A stretch of DNA of 33,957 nt from a virus. Positions 3,081-31,774 of this stretch are shown in pieces. The stretch lies in the IMG/VR virus record IMGVR_UViG_3300028840_006264, positions 1 to 33,957 of that record; one strand, 5' to 3'. Positions within the stretch are counted from its first letter, which is position 1. The number at the start of each line of letters is the position of its first letter. Made by a program: the position numbers and the translations under genes. The notes beneath the pieces are model-generated. The model ran no database searches, was not told the DNA's origin, and worked only from the letters and a program-made list of their open reading frames with translations.

Positions 3081-4303
3081 AATAGTACCTCCTTTCCATA
3101 TAAATCAACGACACTTGAGTTAAACTCAGAGCGCCTGAACATATAATAAGGCATTCCGTAATCCTCGCAGACAGGTTTTTTAAGAAATCCATCTTTAGTT
3201 ATCTCGCAACCATAAACGGCGAACCATTCTTTTACGCCTATCCCCATTTTACCCGCTTTCGGATCAAACCACATTATACGCATAATCTCATCAAAGGTCA
3301 TTTGAGATTTTAAAGCGTATTTTTTATTCATCCGAAATCCCTTATTTAGTATATAATTCTTTATATTGTATCGCCCTTTGGGGAATTTGTCAACTATATG
3401 GCGCTTGAAGTATGAGTAAGCGATTACAGTATCGTCTTCCAATGAATTAAAACAATGTCTGATAAAATCAATCGTATTCGGAAAAAGCGTATCGTATGTT
3501 TCGTCAAAAACATCCCAATATTTTGTATTCCAATTATAGGATGATCCGAAAACAATACCTGAATCTTTAATCATAGATTGAAGAGTATCGATATATTCTG
3601 TTAATTCTGGGGACGGGTTTTTTAAGCCTTCGTTTATGATATCTCCAAAAGCAATCTTGACTTTTGGCGATATATTTTTAATCTGTTTTCGATTAAAATG
3701 AATCTTTTCGGCCCATATGCCTTCCACGCCTGAATTCTTTAATCGTTCAATAAAAGATGCAAGCTGTTTATTATAACCCAACCATTCCCTCACCATAGGA
3801 TTTATTCCGACTTGTACTCGATGTCCTTTTGATCTTAATTTTTCACATAATGTGAAACGACTATCAATATCCGGGGCGTTACGTTCAAAAATCTTACGAG
3901 TTTGATCAGAGCTATGTGTAATTGTTATATACCAACATGTTGGCTTATCCAACATGTCAAGCGCTTCATCTATTCCATATCCGCCTTTTGTCTGAAACGC
4001 CATTGGAATTCCGACTTCACTCATCAATTTAATGATTGATAAAGCCTGCTCATAATTACTCCTTGCGAATGGGTCCGATCGGTTTGACATCAAGACCGGA
4101 TATCCTTTTTTGAGTAATTTGGCAACAAACGTTTCTCTGTTGTTGAAATCAGTCAACAGTTTTGTTAACGGCGCCATATCGCAGTGTTTATTCATTCCGT
4201 TCAGAATATTAAAGCAATAAGCGCATCCATGAGAGCAAGGGTTAAAACTCAATTCTAACGGAATTTTATGGAATAACAATTCGCCCCAAAACGGTACTAT
4301 CAT
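3077..4303 (-). CDS. radical SAM protein, SplB-like (408 aa)
   Basis: The cluster motif is CSHGCAYC (Cys23, Cys27, Cys30; CX3CX2C), binding the 4Fe-4S cluster that cleaves S-adenosylmethionine. Downstream segments SNRSDPFARSNYEQAL, PMAFQTKGG, WYITITHSSD, a conserved RxxL region and VGINPMV follow the order seen in the spore-photoproduct-lyase (SplB)/Rv2578c-like group. Some of these enzymes act on DNA photolesions. Its start overlaps the ParB-fold gene by 4 nt (ATGA), so the two are co-translated. A phage DNA-base modification or repair role is an inference; the substrate is not visible from sequence. Confidence 0.85.
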   Translation of the reverse strand: MIVPFWGELLFHKIPLELSFNPCSHGCAYCFNILNGMNKHCDMAPLTKLLTDFNNRETFVAKLLKKGYPVLMSNRSDPFARSNYEQALSIIKLMSEVGIPMAFQTKGGYGIDEALDMLDKPTCWYITITHSSDQTRKIFERNAPDIDSRFTLCEKLRSKGHRVQVGINPMVREWLGYNKQLASFIERLKNSGVEGIWAEKIHFNRKQIKNISPKVKIAFGDIINEGLKNPSPELTEYIDTLQSMIKDSGIVFGSSYNWNTKYWDVFDETYDTLFPNTIDFIRHCFNSLEDDTVIAYSYFKRHIVDKFPKGRYNIKNYILNKGFRMNKKYALKSQMTFDEIMRIMWFDPKAGKMGIGVKEWFAVYGCEITKDGFLKKPVCEDYGMPYYMFRRSEFNSSVVDLYGKEVLL

Positions 4304-5016
4304 TTTTTATCCTCCTCCAACAAAGTTTCAAAATATTCAATAATTTTAAGAATCGCTAATGTATCACCCTTAACTTTAAATTTTGTCTTTTTTAACGATT
4401 CCCATTTTTCATACTGGCTTCTATCGAGTACAATTGCAATTGGCCGCTTTTTACTATTTTCGAGTTCTCTTATTTTTCCTGATGACATATCCATCATATC
4501 TTGCGATTCAAATTCATCCAGATCGGATGATTCGTCGTCAATAAAGCCTTCTCGGTTATTGAAAAATTCAGAAGCTGTAAGATCAATTTTTTGAACGTTT
4601 CCGAGAATATCGTCCATGATTACTTTTGAAATTCCGGTTATTTTTGGGTCAACGCCTTTTTCAACAAGTTCATGGATTATTGAATCCCGCTTTTGACGAT
4701 TCACTGTAGCGAGTCGAGCAAGATTATTATCCGCCAAAATATCAGCAAGCTCTTGCTCTTCTGAGTCATAATCCTGATATTCAACCGGTAACTCATTATA
4801 GTCTAATTTTTCGGCAGCTTTCAAAAGACCGTGACCGGCCGTAATAAATCCAGAAAAATTAGATATTCTTATTGGTCTTCTTATACCTTGATCTTTTATT
4901 ATTTCGGCATATAGCTCTATTTGTTCTGTTCCGTGCTGATTATAATTTCGAGGATGTTTAAGTGTTGTCAATTCCGATATTTTAACCAGCTTATCGTACT
5001 TGCATTTTATCTTCAT
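4300..5016 (-). CDS. ParB/Srx-fold protein (238 aa)
   Basis: Residues about 10-100 carry a ParB N-terminal-type domain: HPRNYNQHGTEQIELYAEII, GIRRPIRI and then TAGHGLLKAAEKL, matching the loop that holds the GxxR motif in true ParB. The arginine is missing (GHG). I do not see the helix-turn-helix that recognises parS. This fits the phage ParB-like nuclease/kinase relatives that occur beside methylases, rather than a partition ParB. The chosen ATG at 5016 overlaps the upstream stop (TAATG); a GTG at 5046 would add 10 residues. Stop overlaps the radical SAM start. Confidence 0.8.
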   Translation of the reverse strand: MKIKCKYDKLVKISELTTLKHPRNYNQHGTEQIELYAEIIKDQGIRRPIRISNFSGFITAGHGLLKAAEKLDYNELPVEYQDYDSEEQELADILADNNLARLATVNRQKRDSIIHELVEKGVDPKITGISKVIMDDILGNVQKIDLTASEFFNNREGFIDDESSDLDEFESQDMMDMSSGKIRELENSKKRPIAIVLDRSQYEKWESLKKTKFKVKGDTLAILKIIEYFETLLEEDKK

Positions 5017-5210
5017 TATATTTTCTTCTTTGCTGTCTTGATGCACCTAACTTTCCCATTGCTATTTATTCCATCATTGCAGTCTTGCCATTGAGAGCAA
5101 AACTTCGCATCCAATGAATCATATTTTATTTTTTCATGATCTCTTGAATGATAGCAAGACCAACAATCTATTGTCGATCCTGCTTTTATGCATTTAACAT
5201 AATCGCCCAT
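5016..5210 (-). CDS. Cys-rich small protein (64 aa)
   Basis: Six cysteines, including CWSCYHSRDHE and a later FCSQWQDC, suggest one or two bound metal ions. The arrangement recalls the small Cys protein at 20598 (ICLDCNYYSK...C...C), so the two may be distant relatives. The stop overlaps the start of the ParB-fold gene as TAATG. No clear ribosome site before the ATG at 5210. Function unknown. Confidence 0.6.
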   Translation of the reverse strand: MGDYVKCIKAGSTIDCWSCYHSRDHEKIKYDSLDAKFCSQWQDCNDGINSNGKVRCIKTAKKKI

Positions 5211-6673: not shown

Positions 6674-6991
6674 TTATTTCTTTATTTTTCTTTCAAATCT
6701 CATACACCAAAAATCATCTTTTTCATTCTTCCCTTTATACACGCATTTTATGTGTCCGGGGATATCAGAAGGTATCGAATATTTACAATATTTACATTTC
6801 ATCTTAAAAGTCCTTTGCACGCAACCAATGATTATTGTGGCTAATATGTCCCCATAAGCATCAAGCGCGTCATCCAACCTTTCAAAATAAAGAGCGTCGC
6901 CGAGTTCGTTCAATTTTTCAGATATTTTTTCAACCTGCCTTTCGGAATTTTCTTTTTCCACGATACTCACCAACGAATATTTACACTTCAT
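6674..6991 (-). CDS. MazG fragment fused in frame to a small Cys protein (105 aa)
   Basis: The original gene appears to start at 6802 and encode a 42-residue Cys protein (MKCKYCKYS...KCVYKG...FWCMRF). A 189-bp insertion duplicated its ribosome site (AAAGGA) and start region. Between the copies lies a piece of the neighbouring mazG (QVEKISEKLNELGDALYF...DALDAYGDI). Because 189 is a multiple of three, the frame stays open and a fusion starting at 6991 is possible. 36 nt (6880-6915) are identical to mazG 7280-7315. The MazG part lacks its first helix and C-terminal third, so it is unlikely to be an enzyme. Confidence 0.65.
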   Translation of the reverse strand: MKCKYSLVSIVEKENSERQVEKISEKLNELGDALYFERLDDALDAYGDILATIIIGCVQRTFKMKCKYCKYSIPSDIPGHIKCVYKGKNEKDDFWCMRFERKIKK

Positions 6992-7094: not shown

Positions 7095-7424
7095 CAAAGA
7101 ATCCTTTATAAATGTTCCGTTTAATGTAAATCCGCTTCTATCTTTTATTTCTTCATACGCCGAATTAACAGCATCTATAATTCTCGAATGATTGATATTT
7201 TTTTCAAAACAAAATTGAGCGTAACCAATTATGATTGTTACAATTATATCCCCATAAGCGTCAATGGCGTCATCTGTATTTTCAAAATAAAGAGCGTCGC
7301 CGAGTTCGTTCAATTCTTCAAATGTTTTTTCAACCTGTCTTTTGGAATTTCCTTTTTCTCCGATAAGATCTTTATCTTTGCCCCACTTTATAATTTGGTT
7401 TTCTATCCATTCAAAATCATTCAT
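7053..7424 (-). CDS. MazG-like NTP pyrophosphohydrolase (123 aa)
   Basis: Single-domain all-alpha MazG-like protein. The metal-binding helix is EELNELGDAL (Glu36, Glu37, Glu40), followed by DDAIDAYGDI (Asp55, Asp59). Family members hydrolyse nucleoside triphosphates to monophosphates; in phages they may clean modified nucleotides or lower alarmone levels. Its start overlaps the previous gene by 8 nt. A partial, diverged copy lies just downstream (6820-6975). The C-terminal end (KMTFPITSG) runs into an inverted repeat and may be remodelled. Confidence 0.8.
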   Translation of the reverse strand: MNDFEWIENQIIKWGKDKDLIGEKGNSKRQVEKTFEELNELGDALYFENTDDAIDAYGDIIVTIIIGYAQFCFEKNINHSRIIDAVNSAYEEIKDRSGFTLNGTFIKDSLHAAYKMTFPITSG

Positions 7425-10410: not shown

Positions 10411-10764
10411 TTATTTCATCCACCACGGTTTGAAATTTTCAATTTGATCAATTGTCGGAAATACACCATCCCACGGCGGAAATGATCTGTCGTCTATTGA
10501 CATATATGCGGGCGGCTTAATTGCACTTACAACAATATCAGGATTGAATCCATTATTATATAGCCAATTACAAATCGCCAATCGCCCTTTATCTGAAGAA
10601 CATCGGCTTGAAAAAATATGAATTTCAAATCCATTCTTAATGTATAAATCTATTGCCTTCTTTGCCCCATTTACAGGAAGATCCTGAATTTTATCTTCTC
10701 CGAGCCATCCCGATTTGTAAGAATGAATCACTCCGTCAAAATCCATCGCTATTATTCGCCCCAT
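10411..10764 (-). CDS. HAD-superfamily hydrolase (117 aa)
   Basis: All core HAD motifs are visible: MDFDGVIHS (Asp8 nucleophile, Asp10), IFSSR (Ser52/53), Lys83 in AIKPPAYMSI and the acidic IDDRS (Asp91/92). The short length means a minimal cap. Phage relatives act as phosphatases on nucleotides, sugars or polynucleotide ends; the substrate cannot be decided here. Good AAAGGAT ribosome site. Confidence 0.75.
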   Translation of the reverse strand: MGRIIAMDFDGVIHSYKSGWLGEDKIQDLPVNGAKKAIDLYIKNGFEIHIFSSRCSSDKGRLAICNWLYNNGFNPDIVVSAIKPPAYMSIDDRSFPPWDGVFPTIDQIENFKPWWMK

Positions 10765-11734: not shown

Positions 11735-14011
11735 TCACATTGGTAATTCAAGTTGTTTATGTGCTTTTTCTGCCCTTTCAAGATTTTTTATGAGTTCGTT
11801 GTAATAAGATTCTTTTAATTCCACTATTTCACATCGTCTATCGTTTGATATAGCCACATAACCCTCAGAGCCTATTCCTCCAAACCACGATACGATCAAA
11901 TCATCCTTGTTTGACCATAAATAAATCGCTCTTTCGATTACGTCCAATTGTAGCGGGCAAGGATGCTTGACATCTTTATCGTCTTTAGCGTTTTTACATT
12001 TTAAAGTTTTTGTTTGTCTGATATCCCACCAAACAGATTCGGCATACCTTCTAAACAAATATTGTGATTTTCTATTTTTTGAATGTTCTTCATCATATTT
12101 TCCACCTGGATTTTCGCATTCAATCCCTATATATTTTGTGAAGCCATCTGGATGTGATATTGGAATTTCATTTTTACCAGGTTTATAAAAAACACATAAA
12201 TAATCAGGCAGGGCTTGTCTCAAGCAAGCCGAATCTTTTATAACGTTTTTATGAGCCAATCCTTTAGCACGTGTTCTTTGGCTTTCGATTAATGGATCTT
12301 TTGGTATTACGATCTCTGAATGATATATGAATCCGTTTTTTTGATGTATTCTTATTATATCATCCCTAAAATTTTTTATTCCTATATATCCATCGCGCTC
12401 TTTCATTGCGGGTATATTCATGCAATGGATCGCCGCAAGTCTTCCAGGCTTCAGAGTTCTAAATTGCTCTTTTACTAAGAAATTGTAATGTTCGAAAAAT
12501 TCATGATATGATTTCGAGTTGCCCATATCCCTCTCGCTATCGCTATATCTATAAATTTCAGCAAACGGGGGGCTATAAATACAAAAATCATATTTATTGT
12601 CAGGTTGTTTTGAAGATATTTCGACGCAATCCCCATAATACGCTGTCCAATTTTCGCCTTTTACGATTTTTTCTTTATAATCGCTAACAATAATTTTGCC
12701 GCTAATGCCTAATTCTATTTTTGTTTTTTCTGACATCGCTTTAACCATTTCGATAGCCATTTCTTCGTTTTTCCTCATTTTTTCTTTTAAATTTTCTATT
12801 ATGGGATTTTCTCTATCTGTTATTATCATATGAACGTTGACATCTTCTTTTGCTCCGAATCTCCAAAACCTTCGTATCGACTGATACCATTCTTCATATG
12901 AATCCGATGGTATTGTGAAACAAGTGTTATTGCATATTTGGAAATTCATCCCAAATCCTGATATTCTCGGCTTTGTGATTAAAACGTCTATTTTCCCGTT
13001 TGCAAAATCATTCATCACATTCGCTTTATATTCTGCTTTCTGTGGGCCTTTAAGCTCGATTGATCCGTCTATTTTTTTAGATAACATTTCACTTTCAGGA
13101 TTAAAATTACACCAAAAAACCCATTTTTCATCTTCTTTTATCAATGATTTGGCACAATCTGTTCTTTTTTCAAGCGTTTTATTTCTTTCATCCCTTCTAT
13201 CCGAAAGGCTTTTGACTTCTTCCCTAAACAATTCATAGTCTCTAATATCTGTTTTTATTATATGTTCATGATAAATTAATTTTGGAAGTTTAAAATTATC
13301 ATCAGAAAAACCTATGTCTGATGGTTTTTTTATCATGACTGACCAATCGGCAAGCCAATCCCAGAAATCTTTTTTTGACCATTCCATCAAAGTCCATTTT
13401 GATGTATTGCCGGAATCGTGGTAAAAATAATTTCCGAGCATTTCGCCGCGTGTACATACACCTAATATTTCAGCATGATTTCCAAGTTCTGTGTAATCAT
13501 TCGGACTTGGAGTCGCAGTGCAACACAATCTGTATTTTATATTTGATATATTATCGAGCAAAAATGATAAATATACACTCGCCTCATTTTTTATGATGCT
13601 TGATTCATCAAGAACAATAAACTCTTTTGTTTTAAAATCGAATTTATGCATTATTTCGTAATTGCATATGTTTATTCCATTTTTTATATCATCTTCGGAT
13701 CTGCAAATATTGACTTCGTATCCAAACTCATCCCCTATTTTTTTTGTTTGACGATTTACAGCAAGGGGGGCTATTATCAATCCATGACTTCCTGGATTTT
13801 CGATTATTTTTGTGACCCATTCAAGTGATTGTATTGTTTTACCTAACCCGCAATCCTCGAATAACGCGCATCTTCCCTTTTTAATCGCCCATTTGACAAT
13901 GTATTTTTGCCAGTCGAATAGAGCAGGATTAAGTGAATTCAGATCTATATCAAATCCGAAATCCGGCAATTTTTTATTTTTATTTCTTAAAAAATCTTTG
14001 TATGTGTCCAT
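11735..14011 (-). CDS. SNF2-type helicase fused to a DNA methyltransferase (758 aa)
   Basis: Residues 30-430 form a superfamily 2 ATPase: Walker A CGLGKT (to Thr59), LDESS (134-138), motif III TATPSP (165-170), GFGMNF (352-357) and QSIRRFWRFG (377-386). Residues about 455-758 form a beta-class DNA methyltransferase: motif IV SPPF (480-483) precedes the S-adenosylmethionine motif FGGIG (710-714). SPPF fits N4-cytosine or possibly N6-adenine modification. Fusing translocase and methylase suggests protection of phage DNA from restriction, as in DarB-like proteins, or host manipulation. Good GGAGG site. The segment after its stop (11685-11734) is locally GC-rich. Confidence 0.85.
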   Translation of the reverse strand: MDTYKDFLRNKNKKLPDFGFDIDLNSLNPALFDWQKYIVKWAIKKGRCALFEDCGLGKTIQSLEWVTKIIENPGSHGLIIAPLAVNRQTKKIGDEFGYEVNICRSEDDIKNGINICNYEIMHKFDFKTKEFIVLDESSIIKNEASVYLSFLLDNISNIKYRLCCTATPSPNDYTELGNHAEILGVCTRGEMLGNYFYHDSGNTSKWTLMEWSKKDFWDWLADWSVMIKKPSDIGFSDDNFKLPKLIYHEHIIKTDIRDYELFREEVKSLSDRRDERNKTLEKRTDCAKSLIKEDEKWVFWCNFNPESEMLSKKIDGSIELKGPQKAEYKANVMNDFANGKIDVLITKPRISGFGMNFQICNNTCFTIPSDSYEEWYQSIRRFWRFGAKEDVNVHMIITDRENPIIENLKEKMRKNEEMAIEMVKAMSEKTKIELGISGKIIVSDYKEKIVKGENWTAYYGDCVEISSKQPDNKYDFCIYSPPFAEIYRYSDSERDMGNSKSYHEFFEHYNFLVKEQFRTLKPGRLAAIHCMNIPAMKERDGYIGIKNFRDDIIRIHQKNGFIYHSEIVIPKDPLIESQRTRAKGLAHKNVIKDSACLRQALPDYLCVFYKPGKNEIPISHPDGFTKYIGIECENPGGKYDEEHSKNRKSQYLFRRYAESVWWDIRQTKTLKCKNAKDDKDVKHPCPLQLDVIERAIYLWSNKDDLIVSWFGGIGSEGYVAISNDRRCEIVELKESYYNELIKNLERAEKAHKQLELPM

Positions 14012-17027: not shown

Positions 17028-18160
17028 TATGTCGGCCTTCAAAATTAGCGGGATACATGCATTGTCCAGGCATGGCGATACTTGAAAAATTTATTCCGGA
17101 ATCTCAACCAAATCCGGGAATGCTTGAGGGGATTCGTGCGCATCATATCGCCGGGAAATGTTTAAAAGCGCGAATTTGGGAAGTGGATAAAATGGCATTA
17201 AAACGGACTCCAGAAGAAATTATTGAAAATGTTCAGTTATATCTCGATGCCATCCACGAAAGAACTCCAAGGGATGAATCTCAGTTCGAAGCGCATACGG
17301 AAATAAAAGTTGATGGCGATTGGATATATAAAGGATTTAGCGGAACTCCTGACCATCATGTGATTAAAATTTATGGGGGTACATGGTCTATTTTCGATTT
17401 GAAATATGGTAAAGGGGTTATGGTTGATCCGATTGAAAATCCGCAATTAGCGGCATATGCAATTATGATTCTCGGAGAAAATCCACCTCTGGAATGCTGC
17501 AAACGGCTTGAATTGATCATATTCCAGCCAAGAGCGACATATGGAGATCAATTAAAAATATGGGAAATCGAAGATGTTTCATTATTCCATAGCGAGTGGT
17601 CGAATAAAATTAAAGATATAATAGAAAAAGTTGAGAGCGAAACAGAGATATATAATCCAGGGGTAGGTTGTCGCGATCATTTTTGTAATTGCACTCATAT
17701 ATGCCCTGCAATAAAAGAGCTTGCTTATAATTCAGCAATCGCAGTATTCAAAGATGATCAAATAACAATGCCGAATCCAGAGACGTTTGGTCCAGATGAT
17801 ATGGCTAAATTTCTACTTTTTGAATCAGTCTATTCCAAATGGGCTAAAACTTGTCGTTCAAAATGCTTGGAATTTATGGAATCAGGCGGTAATATTCCTG
17901 GATATAAGTTGGTGATGTCGAAAACAAATAGGAAATTAAAATCGGAAAAAGAAACAGATCTTGAAAAAATTTTCGGCGATGAAGCTTTTGATTATAAACC
18001 AAAAGGAATCGCTGACCTGGAAAAGCTTTTCAAATCTAAACCGGATTTAGATTTTAATGATTTTGTATTCACGCCCGATGGAAAGCCGACTATCGCGCCT
18101 GAAAATGATAAACGTCCGGCAATCAGTTTAATCAGACAAGCGAAAAAAATTTTTAGGTGA
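17024..18160 (+). CDS. DUF2800-type RecB/Cas4-like nuclease (378 aa)
   Basis: PD-(D/E)XK nuclease core: Glu93, GTPD (Asp110), FDLKYGKG (Asp125, Lys127) and NPQLAAYA (Gln141). Cys14 near the N-terminus plus CRDHFCNCTHIC (Cys216, 221, 223, 227) could hold an iron-sulfur cluster as in Cas4/AddB relatives. Family members are found in phage replication/recombination operons and probably process DNA ends with the ssDNA-binding protein encoded next. The C-terminal quarter is charged and unassigned. Start overlaps the upstream gene by 4 nt. Confidence 0.8.
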   Translation: MICRPSKLAGYMHCPGMAILEKFIPESQPNPGMLEGIRAHHIAGKCLKARIWEVDKMALKRTPEEIIENVQLYLDAIHERTPRDESQFEAHTEIKVDGDWIYKGFSGTPDHHVIKIYGGTWSIFDLKYGKGVMVDPIENPQLAAYAIMILGENPPLECCKRLELIIFQPRATYGDQLKIWEIEDVSLFHSEWSNKIKDIIEKVESETEIYNPGVGCRDHFCNCTHICPAIKELAYNSAIAVFKDDQITMPNPETFGPDDMAKFLLFESVYSKWAKTCRSKCLEFMESGGNIPGYKLVMSKTNRKLKSEKETDLEKIFGDEAFDYKPKGIADLEKLFKSKPDLDFNDFVFTPDGKPTIAPENDKRPAISLIRQAKKIFR

Positions 18161-18825: not shown

Positions 18826-20592
18826 ATGTACGTATTCGATATTGAATGTTATATAAATTATTTTCTCGCGGTTTTTTATGATCCCGATGATGGAAGAAAC
18901 ACAAGAATATTCGAATACGTACAGGATAAAAATAATCCGAATGAGCTTAAAGCATTTTTCAAAAACGAACAAATGCGAAAAACGCTTTTTGTTTCATTTA
19001 ACGGCTTAAATTACGATATTCCGATCATTCAGGCTTTCATACACGGAAATTCTTTGGAAGACTTAAAAAAGATATCGGATGAAATAATAAAAAAGGGGAA
19101 AAAGCACTGGCAAATTTTAAAAGATTGTCCTCAATTAGAACTAAATCATATAGATTTAAAAGAAGTGGCTCCCGGGCACGCAGGACTTAAATTATATGCT
19201 GCTCGAATGCATTATCCAAAATTACAAGAACTTCCAATAGATCCTGAATCGGTAATAGAAAAAAATCAATATTCCGTACTAAAGGAGTATTGCTTAAATG
19301 ATTGTAAAATAACTTATGAATTATTCAATAAACTTAAAAAAGCAATTGATTTGAGAGTTTCTTTATCTGAACAATATGGCGTTGATTTGCGATCTAAATC
19401 CGATGCTCAAATTGCTGAAAACGTTGTTTTGAGTGAAATCGGCATAAAATCAAAAAAGATTGACCATCCTGAAAAAGTAAAATTTATTCGGCCCGAATGG
19501 ATGAAATTTAAACATTTTGATTTAGAAATATTATGTTGTCAATTTGAAGAATTTGATTTTGAAATCGATAATGGAAAAATTAGATTGCCTGGTTTCTTTA
19601 AAGAAAAAAATAACGATACGGTTCAAGTTTTTGGAAATCATTATTCTACCGGTATTGGTGGACTCCACAGCATCGAAAAAAGCAGATCTATAAAATCAGA
19701 TAAAAATAAAATATTGATCGATAGAGATGTTGCGAGCTATTATCCATCGATCATTTTGAACAGAGATTTATACCCGCCTCAATTAGGGAAAAAATTTATT
19801 GATGTATATAGGGGACTTGTTGAAAAAAGGCTTGACGCAAAAAGAATAGGCGATAAATCAACAGCCGATAGTTTGAAAATTACAATAAATGGATGTTTTG
19901 GAAAATTAAATTCGATCTATTCAAATATTTATGCTCCAGAGCTATTTATAAACGTCACAGTAACGGGACAATTCGCGCTCCTGATGTTGATCGAGCGTTT
20001 GGGATTTAATGGAATAAATGTAATAAGCGCCAACACTGATGGCATTTTGATTTATGAATCCAGGGATAGATACGAAGAAATAAATTTAATCATCCAACAA
20101 TGGGAGAAAGATACCGGATTTAATACAGAGGAAACGATTTACAGAGCATTTTATCAAAAAGACGTAAATAATTATATTGCATTCACGGATGACGGTAAAA
20201 CAAAACTAAAAGGCTTGTATTCCAAACCTGGTTTTATGAAAAATCCGACTAATGAAATTTGTGTAGAAGCGGCAATAGAATATCTTAAAAATAAATCCCC
20301 GATTGAAGAAAAAATTAGAAATTGCAAGGATATAACAAAATTTGTAACAATTAGGACTGTAAATGGAGGAGCGTATTTTAATGGGGAATCGATTGGAAAA
20401 ATTTGCAGATGGTATTATGATGGAAAAGGCAGAAATTTTGAATATAAAAATGGAAACAGAGTGCCGAAATCCGTAAACGCTGCCCCATTATTTGATTTAC
20501 ATTTTCCAAATGATTTAGATTATGATTATTATATTAAAGAAACAAAATTAATAATAAATTCTTTTTCAAAATTAAAACAAATTAAATTTTAA
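18826..20592 (+). CDS. family B DNA polymerase (588 aa)
   Basis: 3'-5' exonuclease motifs: FDIEC (Asp5, Glu7), FNGLNYD (Asp64) and YCLNDCKITYE (Asp159). Polymerase motifs: A, DVASYYPSI (301-309); B, KITINGCFG (351-359); C, ANTDGI (Asp405). In motif B the usual Tyr is Phe, and motif C has NTDG instead of the common DTDS; several phage members share a TDG form. At 588 residues it is compact, close to protein-primed and small phage polymerases. It likely works with the prim-pol encoded leftward and the upstream ssDNA-binding protein. Confidence 0.9.
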   Translation: MYVFDIECYINYFLAVFYDPDDGRNTRIFEYVQDKNNPNELKAFFKNEQMRKTLFVSFNGLNYDIPIIQAFIHGNSLEDLKKISDEIIKKGKKHWQILKDCPQLELNHIDLKEVAPGHAGLKLYAARMHYPKLQELPIDPESVIEKNQYSVLKEYCLNDCKITYELFNKLKKAIDLRVSLSEQYGVDLRSKSDAQIAENVVLSEIGIKSKKIDHPEKVKFIRPEWMKFKHFDLEILCCQFEEFDFEIDNGKIRLPGFFKEKNNDTVQVFGNHYSTGIGGLHSIEKSRSIKSDKNKILIDRDVASYYPSIILNRDLYPPQLGKKFIDVYRGLVEKRLDAKRIGDKSTADSLKITINGCFGKLNSIYSNIYAPELFINVTVTGQFALLMLIERLGFNGINVISANTDGILIYESRDRYEEINLIIQQWEKDTGFNTEETIYRAFYQKDVNNYIAFTDDGKTKLKGLYSKPGFMKNPTNEICVEAAIEYLKNKSPIEEKIRNCKDITKFVTIRTVNGGAYFNGESIGKICRWYYDGKGRNFEYKNGNRVPKSVNAAPLFDLHFPNDLDYDYYIKETKLIINSFSKLKQIKF

Positions 20593-20597
20593 ATATC

Positions 20598-20765
20598 ATG
20601 GCGACCAAAAAAAATTTAAAAAATTACATATGCTTGGATTGCAATTATTATAGCAAGATTGAAAAAACAGTGCTTTCGGGATGCGATAAATTTAAATTAG
20701 TCCATTGCCTTTATGGAGAAATGCCGATCAACGGGAAATGTATTTATAAAATCACAAATGATTAA
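20598..20765 (+). CDS. small Cys-rich protein (55 aa)
   Basis: 55 codons, with CLDC near the N-terminus and three more cysteines (Cys29, Cys37, Cys48), probably metal-binding. The pattern resembles the 64-residue Cys protein at 5016. It is the last gene of the rightward operon, 5 nt after the polymerase stop, with no strong ribosome site. Function unknown. Confidence 0.55.
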   Translation: MATKKNLKNYICLDCNYYSKIEKTVLSGCDKFKLVHCLYGEMPINGKCIYKITND

Positions 20766-20791
20766 ATCTTGACAAAGAAATAATAAAAAAT

Positions 20792-20807
20792 TGTTTCACG
20801 TGAAACA
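20792..20807. promoter_or_regulatory. perfect consensus parS site
   Basis: TGTTTCACGTGAAACA is an exact 16-bp palindrome identical to the classic bacterial chromosomal parS, the ParB (Spo0J) loading site. It lies between the convergent replication and late operons. The window's own ParB-fold protein lacks a visible parS-binding HTH, so host ParB is the likely binder. On the minus strand it is followed by AATTTTTT, so it could also serve as a weak terminator stem. Confidence 0.85.
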
Positions 20808-20833
20808 GGATCGTCAGAATTAGTGACGATCCT
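20807..20833. terminator. hairpin between convergent operons
   Basis: A 9-bp stem, AGGATCGTC (20807-20815) with GACGATCCT (20825-20833), loop 9 nt, directly abutting parS. On the minus strand the parS dyad and then a T6 tract follow, so the pair could end late transcription. On the plus strand there is no T-run. Confidence 0.5.
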
Positions 20834-20849
20834 AAATCACGCATAAAGA

Positions 20850-21227
20850 TTATTTCGTTATTTTGCGATAACTCGATCCGTAATCCCCTGTTGTCACAGC
20901 GCTATTATCAAAATAATTTTTATATTGATTGATCGCCGTAATCACGTCTGTTAAAACAGATATCGGCATTCCCTCAAATTCTGTGCCAACAAGATCACCA
21001 GCTACTATTTCATCCGCGCCGCCGCTGTTATATCCTCTGTCAAAATAAACTTCATAAAGATAATCAGAATTCGCTTTTTGAGCTTGCAAATTTGTAGCGA
21101 GGGCTCTAACCGAGGTAATAAAATCAATTTTCTGATTTGTCGGATAATCGGCGATTGCCAAAGATGCGATAAACATAATTGCACTGATGAGCATAATAAA
21201 GATGATTTTTTTGTCTGTTTTTTTCAT
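20850..21227 (-). CDS. small protein with signal peptide, paralogue of 21830-22114 (125 aa)
   Basis: Basic start (MKKTDKK), a hydrophobic core (IIFIMLISAIMFIASLAIA) and a likely cleavage after the Ala/Asp region indicate Sec export. The mature part, with FITSVRALATNL, SGGADEIVAGDLVGTEFEG and ITAINQYKNYFDN, parallels the signal-less protein at 21830 motif by motif. AAAGGA site before the ATG. Role unknown; related small proteins accompany tail-fibre genes. Last gene of the late operon. Confidence 0.7.
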   Translation of the reverse strand: MKKTDKKIIFIMLISAIMFIASLAIADYPTNQKIDFITSVRALATNLQAQKANSDYLYEVYFDRGYNSGGADEIVAGDLVGTEFEGMPISVLTDVITAINQYKNYFDNSAVTTGDYGSSYRKITK

Positions 21228-21829: not shown

Positions 21830-22114
21830 TTAATTCATAATTTTTTGCATATTGTCGTCATGGCCAGCATTATACCATGTCTCGAATCCCTGAACGGACG
21901 TAACGCACGCAGTCAACGCAGTCACGCCGAGTCCGTCATAAGTTGTCCCTGTCATATCGCCATCTACAAATTCGTTCGCCCCTCCTGATCCAAATGCAAG
22001 GCTATTCCATTTTTGATCAAGCTCTTTTGCTTTTTTTCTCACAAGATCAAGAAGTTCTGCAAGAGCCCTCATATCTGTTAGAAATTGCGATTTTTGATCA
22101 TTGATTAGTGCCAT
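21830..22114 (-). CDS. small tail-associated protein (94 aa)
   Basis: Helical N-terminus (FLTDMRALAELLDLVRKK) followed by SGGANEFVDGDMTGTTYDGL and a helix ending in FETWYN. This type of short protein recurs beside phage tail-fibre genes. Strong AAAGGAG site. Paralogue of the exported protein at 20850, without a signal peptide. Confidence 0.65.
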   Translation of the reverse strand: MALINDQKSQFLTDMRALAELLDLVRKKAKELDQKWNSLAFGSGGANEFVDGDMTGTTYDGLGVTALTACVTSVQGFETWYNAGHDDNMQKIMN

Positions 22115-28762: not shown

Positions 28763-31700
28763 TTATGTGACCTCGACTAACTGAGCAAAATCATACTCCG
28801 TGCCCCATATTCGTATTTTTGAAAGAAATTCTCTAACCGCCCATTCAAACGCAGGGCCGAACGACTGATCTATTGTGCACGAAATAGCTCTTTTTGTAGG
28901 ATCTCTCAATAAATCGTTTTGTAATTTTTGTTTTTCTATCTGCAATTCTATTGATTTTTTTTGCAGTTCAAATTCTTCTCTTTGTATCCTGATATTCTGT
29001 CTTATCTGCTCTTGCAATAGCCATAATGATCTTAAATCAAGATCCTGCTCAAATTGGCCGAATAGATCGTTTGTTGAATCCGATAAGCCTTGAATTAAAT
29101 CCGATGTGTTCTCGACAATTGTATCAAATTTTCTAAGTTCGGCTTTTATTTTCTCAACGTCTATTTCGGCGTCTAATTTTAATTTTGTTGTTGCGATATC
29201 GTTAAAAACATCTAATTGTTTTTCTATCCTTTTCGTGTCTTCTTCTAATTCTTTGCTTTCTATTTTGAATAAAAATTCTTTATCCTCGGATAACTTTTTT
29301 TTCGTTTCTTCGATTTTATCTATTGAATCCTTGTTTACTTCTCCTATAAATTCAATATATGTTTCGCCGCCTATTTCTTTTACAATGATATCCGACATTG
29401 TTTTCAAATCGTTTGTCGCCGCTGCGATTTCTCTTCTTGCGGGCTCCATATCGATCTGAACTTGGATCTTTTCTTCTGTAAGAGCTTCTATCTTATTTTC
29501 AATATCTAATAATTCTTTATATAATCCTTCATCGCCATCACCAGTTAACAAATCTATTTCTATTTGTCTTTTTCGACTTGTTAAATAATCTATTTCGCCA
29601 TCAATTGAGGTCAGTTTATCTTCAAATAATTCAAGAGAATCATACGGGCTTGTATCAGATATTGTTTTCTTTAAAAATCCCCAGGTGTCTGTTATCTCGA
29701 TGACAGATTCTTTTGCATCGTCAATCCCTTCAACTTTTACGCCCAATGTGGCGGTAGAATCTATCGGCAATTCTTCTTTTATACTTTTTTTAGCGCTTTC
29801 AAGTGCTTTGTCAAACGTATCTTGATTCCAATAAAGATTTATTCGTTTTTCATCAGGAACTTTTTTAATTCTATCGCTTGTATCAACAATTTTTTTATCA
29901 AAACCTTCCAATGCTTGCGTTGCGCCAGAGGCCGCTTCTTTTATATTTTGCGTAAACGAGTAAAGATTGGCCTCAGATAATTCATCTAAAGATTGCCTTG
30001 CATTTTTAATTTTATCACTTAATCCTTCAAAAGGATTGATTTTATCTATCAATTCAGCAAGACCTAAAACTTTGTCAGCTATTAAGAGAATGGATTTTAA
30101 AAAAGCATCAAAAATGCTTTGAATAAAATTTATTACTGTTTTTGATGATCCTGCCAATATATCAAAAATACCTTCAATGGAAATCCCGGCTTGGTTTAAC
30201 GCGGTTACAACGCCGCCTAAAGCAACACCTATTTCTCCCATTAATCCTGCAATGCCAGCAATCTTTCCGAACGTTCTTTCAGATTGAGCGGATAATTCGT
30301 CTGATTTTTGAATTGCTTCTATTATACCTTCAATATAGGGCTTGAATGCGTCATATATACCCGTTGAAACGTTTACAAGAGACTCAAAAGCGTTCACGAC
30401 TAATTGTATTGCTTCAGCTAATCCCTCCGTAGTAGATATATCGATATCAAACGTTGATAAAACAACGCTTTTGAATTCTTCAAGTGACGCTACAAGTCCT
30501 CCAAAATCAACATCCTCGAAAGCATCAGGAAGGTTTTTTGCAATTTCTTTTAATAAATCGCCTAATTCGTTTCCGGCATCTTCAACAAGATTTAAAATGT
30601 CATCAAAAGCGCCCTCACGGACAAGGCTCTTTAACGCCAAATTTATTTCTGTGGCTCCTTCTATGGTGTTTTTACCGGCATCTTTAAACTGTGCCCCTAT
30701 TTGCGCTGCGAGGTCTCTAAATGACGCAATAGCGCGTTGTATCTGAACTTCAGCAGTCCCGAGTCCTCTTGCAAGCTCCTTGTCAAGGGAGCCGCCAGCT
30801 TCAGTTGCGGCTATGGCCGTGGCGTTTAAAGCTGTTTCCATGCCATTCAGCAAGGCTGTAAATTTAGCGGCCTGATCTTTTCCGGCAATCATAGAAGCGA
30901 TTTGAACTTGTTGTGCTTTTGAAAGACCGTTATATACCGGGAGTAATTCATCCAATATTTCTTTTACATTTTTTTGCTCGCCGTTTGCTTTTTTAAGTTC
31001 TATCCCATAAGCGCTAAGAGTTTTTGTCAACTCGCTTGTAGGATCGGCCAAAGATAAAAGCGATGTTTTTAAACCATTCGCGGATTCCGAACCTGAACCA
31101 AAAACTTCAACAACAGGAATTAAAAATCCCGCCATCTCGTCGAATGAAAATCCAAGGCTTTCTGATATTGGGGCGAGAATTGTTAATCCGTTGGTCAATT
31201 CCCCAACTGTTGTAGCATATTCATCAGCAAATTTATTAAAAACATCGGCGAAATGAATCGATTCATTTACAATATCTTCTTCGGCAACTCTGAAGCCTTT
31301 TAATATTGATATAAGCGTTTCAGTGCTTCGGCCCATTTGGAAATTTGCTTCGCTTGCGCCGATAACAAGTTTTGACGCAAGTTCCGCCAAATGTGCTGAT
31401 GCCTCAAGTTCAAAACTCGCTTTTCTAAATTCAGCGGCCGAGTTAACCGCCTCGGCGGTAGTTTGGCCGAACGCTCCGCCAAACTCTTCCATGCGGCTTA
31501 CAAGATTCGGCAATAATTTTTGTTCTTGTTCCGATAAAACTTTATCTAACCCAACTACGGCGGATTCTAATTTTACAGCCTCATGAAAAGAATAGGCTAA
31601 TCCTCCGGCCGCTAATAACGCGAGCTTTTTATCTAAATCTATTACCGAATCGCTTATGGCGGCAAGTGGTTTTTGGATATTGTCAACGAATGCGGTCCTC

Positions 31701-31774
31701 ATATCACTGACAACGCCGGAAACGTTATTTACGCCTTCAAATATTATTTTTATTATTTTTTCGGTATCTGCCAT
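28763..31774 (-). CDS. tail tape-measure protein (1003 aa)
   Basis: Long, helix-rich protein. The N-terminal 350 residues match the phage tape-measure core (TIGR01760-like): LLAAGGLAYSFHEAVKLESAV, TTAEAVNSAAEFRKAS, SFDEMAGFLIPVVEVFGSGSES, QIASMIAGKDQAAKF, QRAIASFRDLAAQIG. Hydrophobic segments lie near 510-570, and coiled coils lie near 745-955. Tail length scales with tape-measure length, so a long non-contractile tail is expected. It follows the chaperone ORFs, and its start is coupled to their stop. Confidence 0.9.
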   Translation of the reverse strand: MADTEKIIKIIFEGVNNVSGVVSDMRTAFVDNIQKPLAAISDSVIDLDKKLALLAAGGLAYSFHEAVKLESAVVGLDKVLSEQEQKLLPNLVSRMEEFGGAFGQTTAEAVNSAAEFRKASFELEASAHLAELASKLVIGASEANFQMGRSTETLISILKGFRVAEEDIVNESIHFADVFNKFADEYATTVGELTNGLTILAPISESLGFSFDEMAGFLIPVVEVFGSGSESANGLKTSLLSLADPTSELTKTLSAYGIELKKANGEQKNVKEILDELLPVYNGLSKAQQVQIASMIAGKDQAAKFTALLNGMETALNATAIAATEAGGSLDKELARGLGTAEVQIQRAIASFRDLAAQIGAQFKDAGKNTIEGATEINLALKSLVREGAFDDILNLVEDAGNELGDLLKEIAKNLPDAFEDVDFGGLVASLEEFKSVVLSTFDIDISTTEGLAEAIQLVVNAFESLVNVSTGIYDAFKPYIEGIIEAIQKSDELSAQSERTFGKIAGIAGLMGEIGVALGGVVTALNQAGISIEGIFDILAGSSKTVINFIQSIFDAFLKSILLIADKVLGLAELIDKINPFEGLSDKIKNARQSLDELSEANLYSFTQNIKEAASGATQALEGFDKKIVDTSDRIKKVPDEKRINLYWNQDTFDKALESAKKSIKEELPIDSTATLGVKVEGIDDAKESVIEITDTWGFLKKTISDTSPYDSLELFEDKLTSIDGEIDYLTSRKRQIEIDLLTGDGDEGLYKELLDIENKIEALTEEKIQVQIDMEPARREIAAATNDLKTMSDIIVKEIGGETYIEFIGEVNKDSIDKIEETKKKLSEDKEFLFKIESKELEEDTKRIEKQLDVFNDIATTKLKLDAEIDVEKIKAELRKFDTIVENTSDLIQGLSDSTNDLFGQFEQDLDLRSLWLLQEQIRQNIRIQREEFELQKKSIELQIEKQKLQNDLLRDPTKRAISCTIDQSFGPAFEWAVREFLSKIRIWGTEYDFAQLVEVT

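Follow-up and report, generated by a model that had tools for sequence, protein, structure and literature searches.

The closest described system to the locus reported here is that of the virulent phage phi29, whose genome is entrapped in spores by the host protein Spo0J/ParB (Meijer et al. 2005, EMBO J 24:3647, as cited in PMC9437464). The phi29 genome carries four parS sites at 1 mismatch (positions 10445, 15903, 17243 and 18760), and the site at 17243 is situated between the end of gene 16 and annotated rho-independent terminators. To our knowledge, viral use of chromosome segregation via host ParB is documented only for phi29 in spores, and the part of the literature covered contained no paper surveying how host-type parS is distributed among phages. 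In bacteria, the parS consensus is the 16-bp palindrome TGTTNCACGTGAAACA (PMC7022226). CTP-bound ParB is loaded at parS, where it forms a closed clamp, spreads and activates ParA (PMC12704722), and SMC is recruited at ParB-parS (PMC9564211). Extrachromosomal prophages such as P1 possess a plasmid-type ParABS, in which ParA, ParB and the matching centromere are all supplied by the phage. Sites for host cell-cycle proteins are also borne by phage DNA in the case of CtrA (alphaproteobacterial phages), Spo0A and LexA boxes (PMC9437464); these proteins are transcription factors, whereas ParB is a DNA clamp for segregation.

The window, that is, the whole stretch of DNA analyzed, is an IMG/VR virus record of 33,957 bases with 35% GC. 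The 16-mer TGTTTCACGTGAAACA in it is identical to the chromosomal-type parS consensus at every position, and the mismatch scan revealed no second site with 3 or fewer mismatches elsewhere in the window. By a first-order Markov model, 7.4e-6 exact copies are expected in the window, which agrees with the chance of about 1 in 100,000 given in the original prediction. That prediction had also described the 16-mer as an exact consensus in an intergenic region, and both statements held: the 55-aa ORF on the plus strand stops before the site and the small gene on the minus strand stops after it (Table 1). The site is flanked on one side by a rightward replication operon (DUF2800 exonuclease, ssDNA-binding protein and DNA polymerase) followed by this ORF, and on the other side by a leftward tail operon with the tape measure gene at 28763-31774. 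The small tail-region proteins encoded at 20850-21227 and 21830-22114 are paralogues with 31% identity over 77 aa.

Table 1. Features at and around the parS site and the ParB-fold gene of the window.
Feature	Positions	Strand	Basis or remark
parS, exact chromosomal-type consensus, palindrome TGTTTCACGTGAAACA	20792..20807	.	exact-match scan; consensus per PMC7022226
Gap between convergent operons, 84 bp, containing parS and hairpin	20766..20849	.	
Family-B-type DNA polymerase (phrog_1252), final large gene of the rightward replication operon	18826..20592	+	PHROG match
Small Cys-containing ORF, 55 aa, final ORF ahead of the gap	20598..20765	+	read from sequence
Small unknown protein, N-terminal stretch hydrophobic; located at the end of the leftward tail operon	20850..21227	-	
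ParB-fold protein, N-terminal domain only, without HTH; not a partition ParB	4300..5046	-	best PHROGs phrog_498 (DNA methyltransferase) and phrog_620 (ParB-like)
Strong hairpin AGGATCGTCAGAATTAGTGACGATCCT, 10 bp, about -15 kcal/mol, abutting parS and sharing its last base	20807..20833	.	plus side without T-run
Terminator-like minus-strand reading: weak 6-bp stem, -3.9 to -4.9 kcal/mol, then ATTTTTTATT	20782..20807	-	

Compared with bacterial chromosomal parS (ParABS-SMC), the window site has the same sequence but is located on a phage genome, in single copy and without adjacent parAB. Phi29 is likewise a virulent phage with chromosomal-type parS, and its site at 17243, between a gene end and terminators, is arranged as in the window. 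However, phi29 carries several sites of the GGAACA half-variant and has a known sporulating host, whereas the window phage carries one exact site; the two phages showed no detectable relationship. The original prediction had stated that no well-described lytic-phage system of this kind was known to its author. Because virulent phi29 has four parS sites and its spore entrapment by Spo0J is published, this view was wrong or overstated.

The same virus is also represented by IMGVR_UViG_3300017971_000113 (43,645 bp), a second assembly that is 99.994% identical to the window over 33.9 kb and whose ends overlap by 124 bp, as expected of a complete genome. This assembly holds the same single parS, so the search for further copies which had been suggested for the genome yielded one site in both records. 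Its extra part appears, as read from the sequence, to encode terminase, portal and capsid proteins, with the terminase supported by a protein match. In profile searches of the second assembly, TIGR00180 ParB, HTH_ParB (PF17762) and ParA-type AAA_31 (PF13614) were all undetected, as was a tyrosine integrase. The ParB-fold protein of the window matched N-terminal ParB-like PHROGs only. The claims that a canonical ParA/ParB pair is missing and that the local ParB-fold protein lacks the DNA-binding HTH were thus borne out, and the phage has a centromere-like site but no detectable partition genes. This is the phi29-type combination, found in the virus record as well as in its 43.6-kb twin. It also sets the phage apart from P1-type prophages, which share a centromere-like site on phage DNA but bring their own partition proteins. 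A ParABS system of the phage's own was rejected, as a ParA ATPase and a ParB with central HTH were both undetected.

The polymerase search recovered only one close relative, which is the same virus, and relatives that were 60–90% identical or otherwise moderately diverged were not found. The distant relatives, with polymerases 25–47% identical, were without parS in 13 whole records and in 80 partial loci. The blastn search of the site neighbourhood against annotated phages and plasmids gave no match, and thus nothing points to recent capture of a parS region from a chromosome. The best protein matches of polymerase and terminase were in phages of Proteobacteria. Those of the SNF2-methyltransferase were on Nitrospiraceae and Patescibacteria MAG contigs. 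This gene (11735-14011) encodes an SNF2-type helicase fused to an N6/N4 DNA methyltransferase. The product shares 47% identity with a protein from a Patescibacteria MAG contig (L361), and the match is perhaps a clue to the host. Elsewhere in the window, a 143-bp stretch occurs twice in adjacent small genes (6823-6965 and 7223-7365, 84% identity), which is a recent duplication.

To judge how often such sites occur in viruses, two palindromes of identical dinucleotide content to parS served as controls in complete IMG/VR scans. They were present in 5 and 11 stretches, while exact parS was present in at least 120. The 18-mer consisting of parS and the flanks of the window site was found in at least 119 stretches; since such flanks belonged to 7 of 144 sampled viral sites (about 5%), extrapolation gives at least about 2,400 exact sites in IMG/VR. 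With 5–11 stretches for the controls versus estimated thousands for parS, less than 1% of the exact sites should be due to chance. The window 16-mer could itself be a chance occurrence, as it is a single site in the window and is absent from distant relatives. However, only about 7e-6 copies are expected there and the controls are nearly missing from the whole viral collection, and this is the least probable of the explanations considered.

Annotated phage genomes with parS amounted to about 300 records (297, 315 and 306 for three flank variants), a few of the matches being 16-base stretches in which a flank base is included and one outer base of parS is lacking, while the control query gave 0 records. 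The phages concerned belong to unrelated groups, including Listeria Pecentumvirus P100/A511, L. plantarum Harbinvirus, Gordonia phages Woes and Orchid, Arthrobacter and Microbacterium phages, phi29-like Bacillus phages including B103, Ruegeria phage DSS3P8, a T5-like Vibrio cholerae phage, Spiroplasma phage 4, gut Microviridae and Inoviridae. No host from the Enterobacteriaceae or Pasteurellaceae, which are without ParB, was named among the annotated-phage matches listed. Since IMG/VR may contain some host DNA, the cultured phages and the terminase-defined lineage described below bear the main weight of this comparison.

Several features indicate selection on phage parS. The sites avoid genes, as 44% and 59% of them (two samples) were inside ORFs of at least 100 aa, versus 82–83% of random positions. 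The bases just outside the 16-mer favoured T symmetrically (57% and 50% of sampled viral sites); the window site, with A on one side and G on the other, is not of this T-rich type. Among the near-matches in the fetched loci, 20 of 32 had the substitution that converts one half-site into GGAACA, a known variant of parS, although this count includes and is inflated by one contig, G040. This contig (IMGVR_UViG_3300037518_000322; partly in L087), classed as viral, has 24 parS-like sites, mostly TGTTTCACGTGGAACA, at 90.9–112.4 kb beside a strong ParA gene, and may derive from a chromosome or plasmid, or else from a phage that has its own system. Because the strong ParA adjoins its cluster and it may be non-phage, G040 was left out of the multi-site count, in which 12 of 49 parS contigs had two or more sites at 1 mismatch or less, versus 0 of 46 random viral contigs with any such site.

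In a terminase-defined uncultured lineage, parS was present in 36 of 62 loci, mostly as 2–5 copies in the roughly 2 kb preceding terL, and 106 parS sites were counted in 529 kb versus 0 and 0 for the two control palindromes. Pairs such as L363/L403 and L384/L387, whose terL are 74–76% identical and whose upstream DNA can hardly be aligned (14–16% blastn coverage), each keep 2–3 exact sites. Judging from these sequence patterns, phage parS in general is clearly kept by selection; for the window site, the close relative is the same virus only.

Whether parS phages encode their own binder was examined by profile searches: HTH_ParB was found in 0 of 40 parS records tested and ParB above the family cut-off in 0 of 50, and therefore the binder must come from the host. 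A link of parS to lysogeny or to non-integrating phages was rejected, as tyrosine integrase was equally frequent in parS records (6/49) and random contigs (4/46); thus, no particular life style stands out in these data as the one that benefits.

The position of the site at a convergent operon junction, and a minus-strand hairpin followed by ATTTTTTATT, could mean that the leftward tail operon ends in an intrinsic terminator of which the palindrome forms one arm, the resemblance to parS being incidental. The T-run is present on the minus strand, yet the stem of the palindrome is weak and was not called by the terminator scan, and a separate and far stronger hairpin, which the original prediction did not mention, adjoins it (Table 1). 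Moreover, termination requires no specific 16-mer, and T-runs were next to 26% of viral parS sites versus 15% at random. The control palindromes, which should fold about equally, were as rare as stated above. Because the stem is weak, the adjoining hairpin is far stronger, and the base-specific conservation and the preference for T at the two outer flanking positions across viral loci would be left unexplained, we regard this reading as very improbable. As the only explanation, a terminator was rejected on stem strength and the collection-wide statistics, while the palindrome could still add to a terminator. Hairpins were near 12–14% of viral parS sites versus 4–5% of random positions, an excess which fits siting at operon ends. 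The same placement bears on a regulatory role, in which ParB loaded at the site would silence or regulate transcription at the ends of the two flanking operons. P. aeruginosa ParB is reported to repress promoters adjacent to high-affinity parS (PMC5521831). However, the window site is at gene 3' ends and not at a promoter, and the sites of other phages occupy many differing contexts, so that we give such a role slightly less credence even than the terminator.

The window 16-mer is probably a functional parS which recruits host ParB, most likely for positioning or partition of the phage DNA. Recurrence far above controls in unrelated phages is as expected for recruitment of host ParB. The recruitment reading put forward in the original prediction is supported in part: the site is confirmed as a non-random one of chromosomal type, the phage is without a detectable ParB of its own, and similar sites exceed the controls by far in many unrelated phages; the claimed lack of precedent fell. 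For the window site itself, we infer the binding of ParB, the presence of a host with ParB and the benefit in partition. After infection, host ParB would bind the phage parS, close as a CTP-dependent clamp and slide along the phage DNA. The phage genome might then be handled like the origin-proximal chromosome of the host and be placed where the host places its origins. The benefit would most likely be positioning and partition via host ParA/SMC when lysis is delayed, as in slow, starved or carrier-state infection. By analogy, in phi29 host Spo0J helps to trap the genome in the spore, and the benefit there is spore entry. For the window phage, partition or positioning under delayed lysis would be the most economical assumption.

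Alternatively, the site might titrate or misdirect host ParB, together with SMC or nucleoid occlusion, and so disturb segregation of the host chromosome to the advantage of the phage. Once replicated, the phage DNA would be present in excess over the few parS sites of the chromosome, and some phages have several sites, such as an inovirus with six in 6.2 kb. However, one copy makes a weak sponge, single sites are common among phages (202 of the 233 fetched loci), and many of the bacteria tabulated in PMC7022226 do not require ParB for viability. We therefore consider titration unlikely, although it is the most credible of the alternatives to partition or positioning by host ParB.

The ParB clamp of the host is broadly conserved, and its target is near-universal. 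On balance, we favour the idea that its recruitment by host-type parS is a general and repeatedly evolved phage strategy, extending over tailed dsDNA phages, microviruses and filamentous phages and including those of non-spore-forming hosts, with the window phage as one single-site case. If so, phages without partition genes could use the host segregation machine, and the carriage of parS by many ParB-less phages would amount to a wide viral use of chromosome segregation. It would also explain how phage DNA may be inherited in cells whose lysis is not immediate, and would provide a simple rule for spotting such phages. Ready test systems exist among the cultured phages, namely Listeria P100/A511, L. 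plantarum Bromius, Gordonia Woes and Arthrobacter Atuin.

Site arrangement differed among individual phages. In bajarodino virus 3 (L151, Inoviridae, PQ006097), six exact parS are present in the 6.2-kb filamentous phage genome, which suggests that host ParB is used for inheritance of the replicative form. The T5-like Vibrio phage phi 3 (L358) has two parS-type sites at positions 821 and 2934, in the left terminal repeat, and these possibly lie in the first-entering segment of the genome. Among the terminase-sharing uncultured phages (L362-L393, L403, L405, L415, L422 and L053), most have exact parS arrays whose positions shift among relatives, and this lineage is good for studying phage parS.
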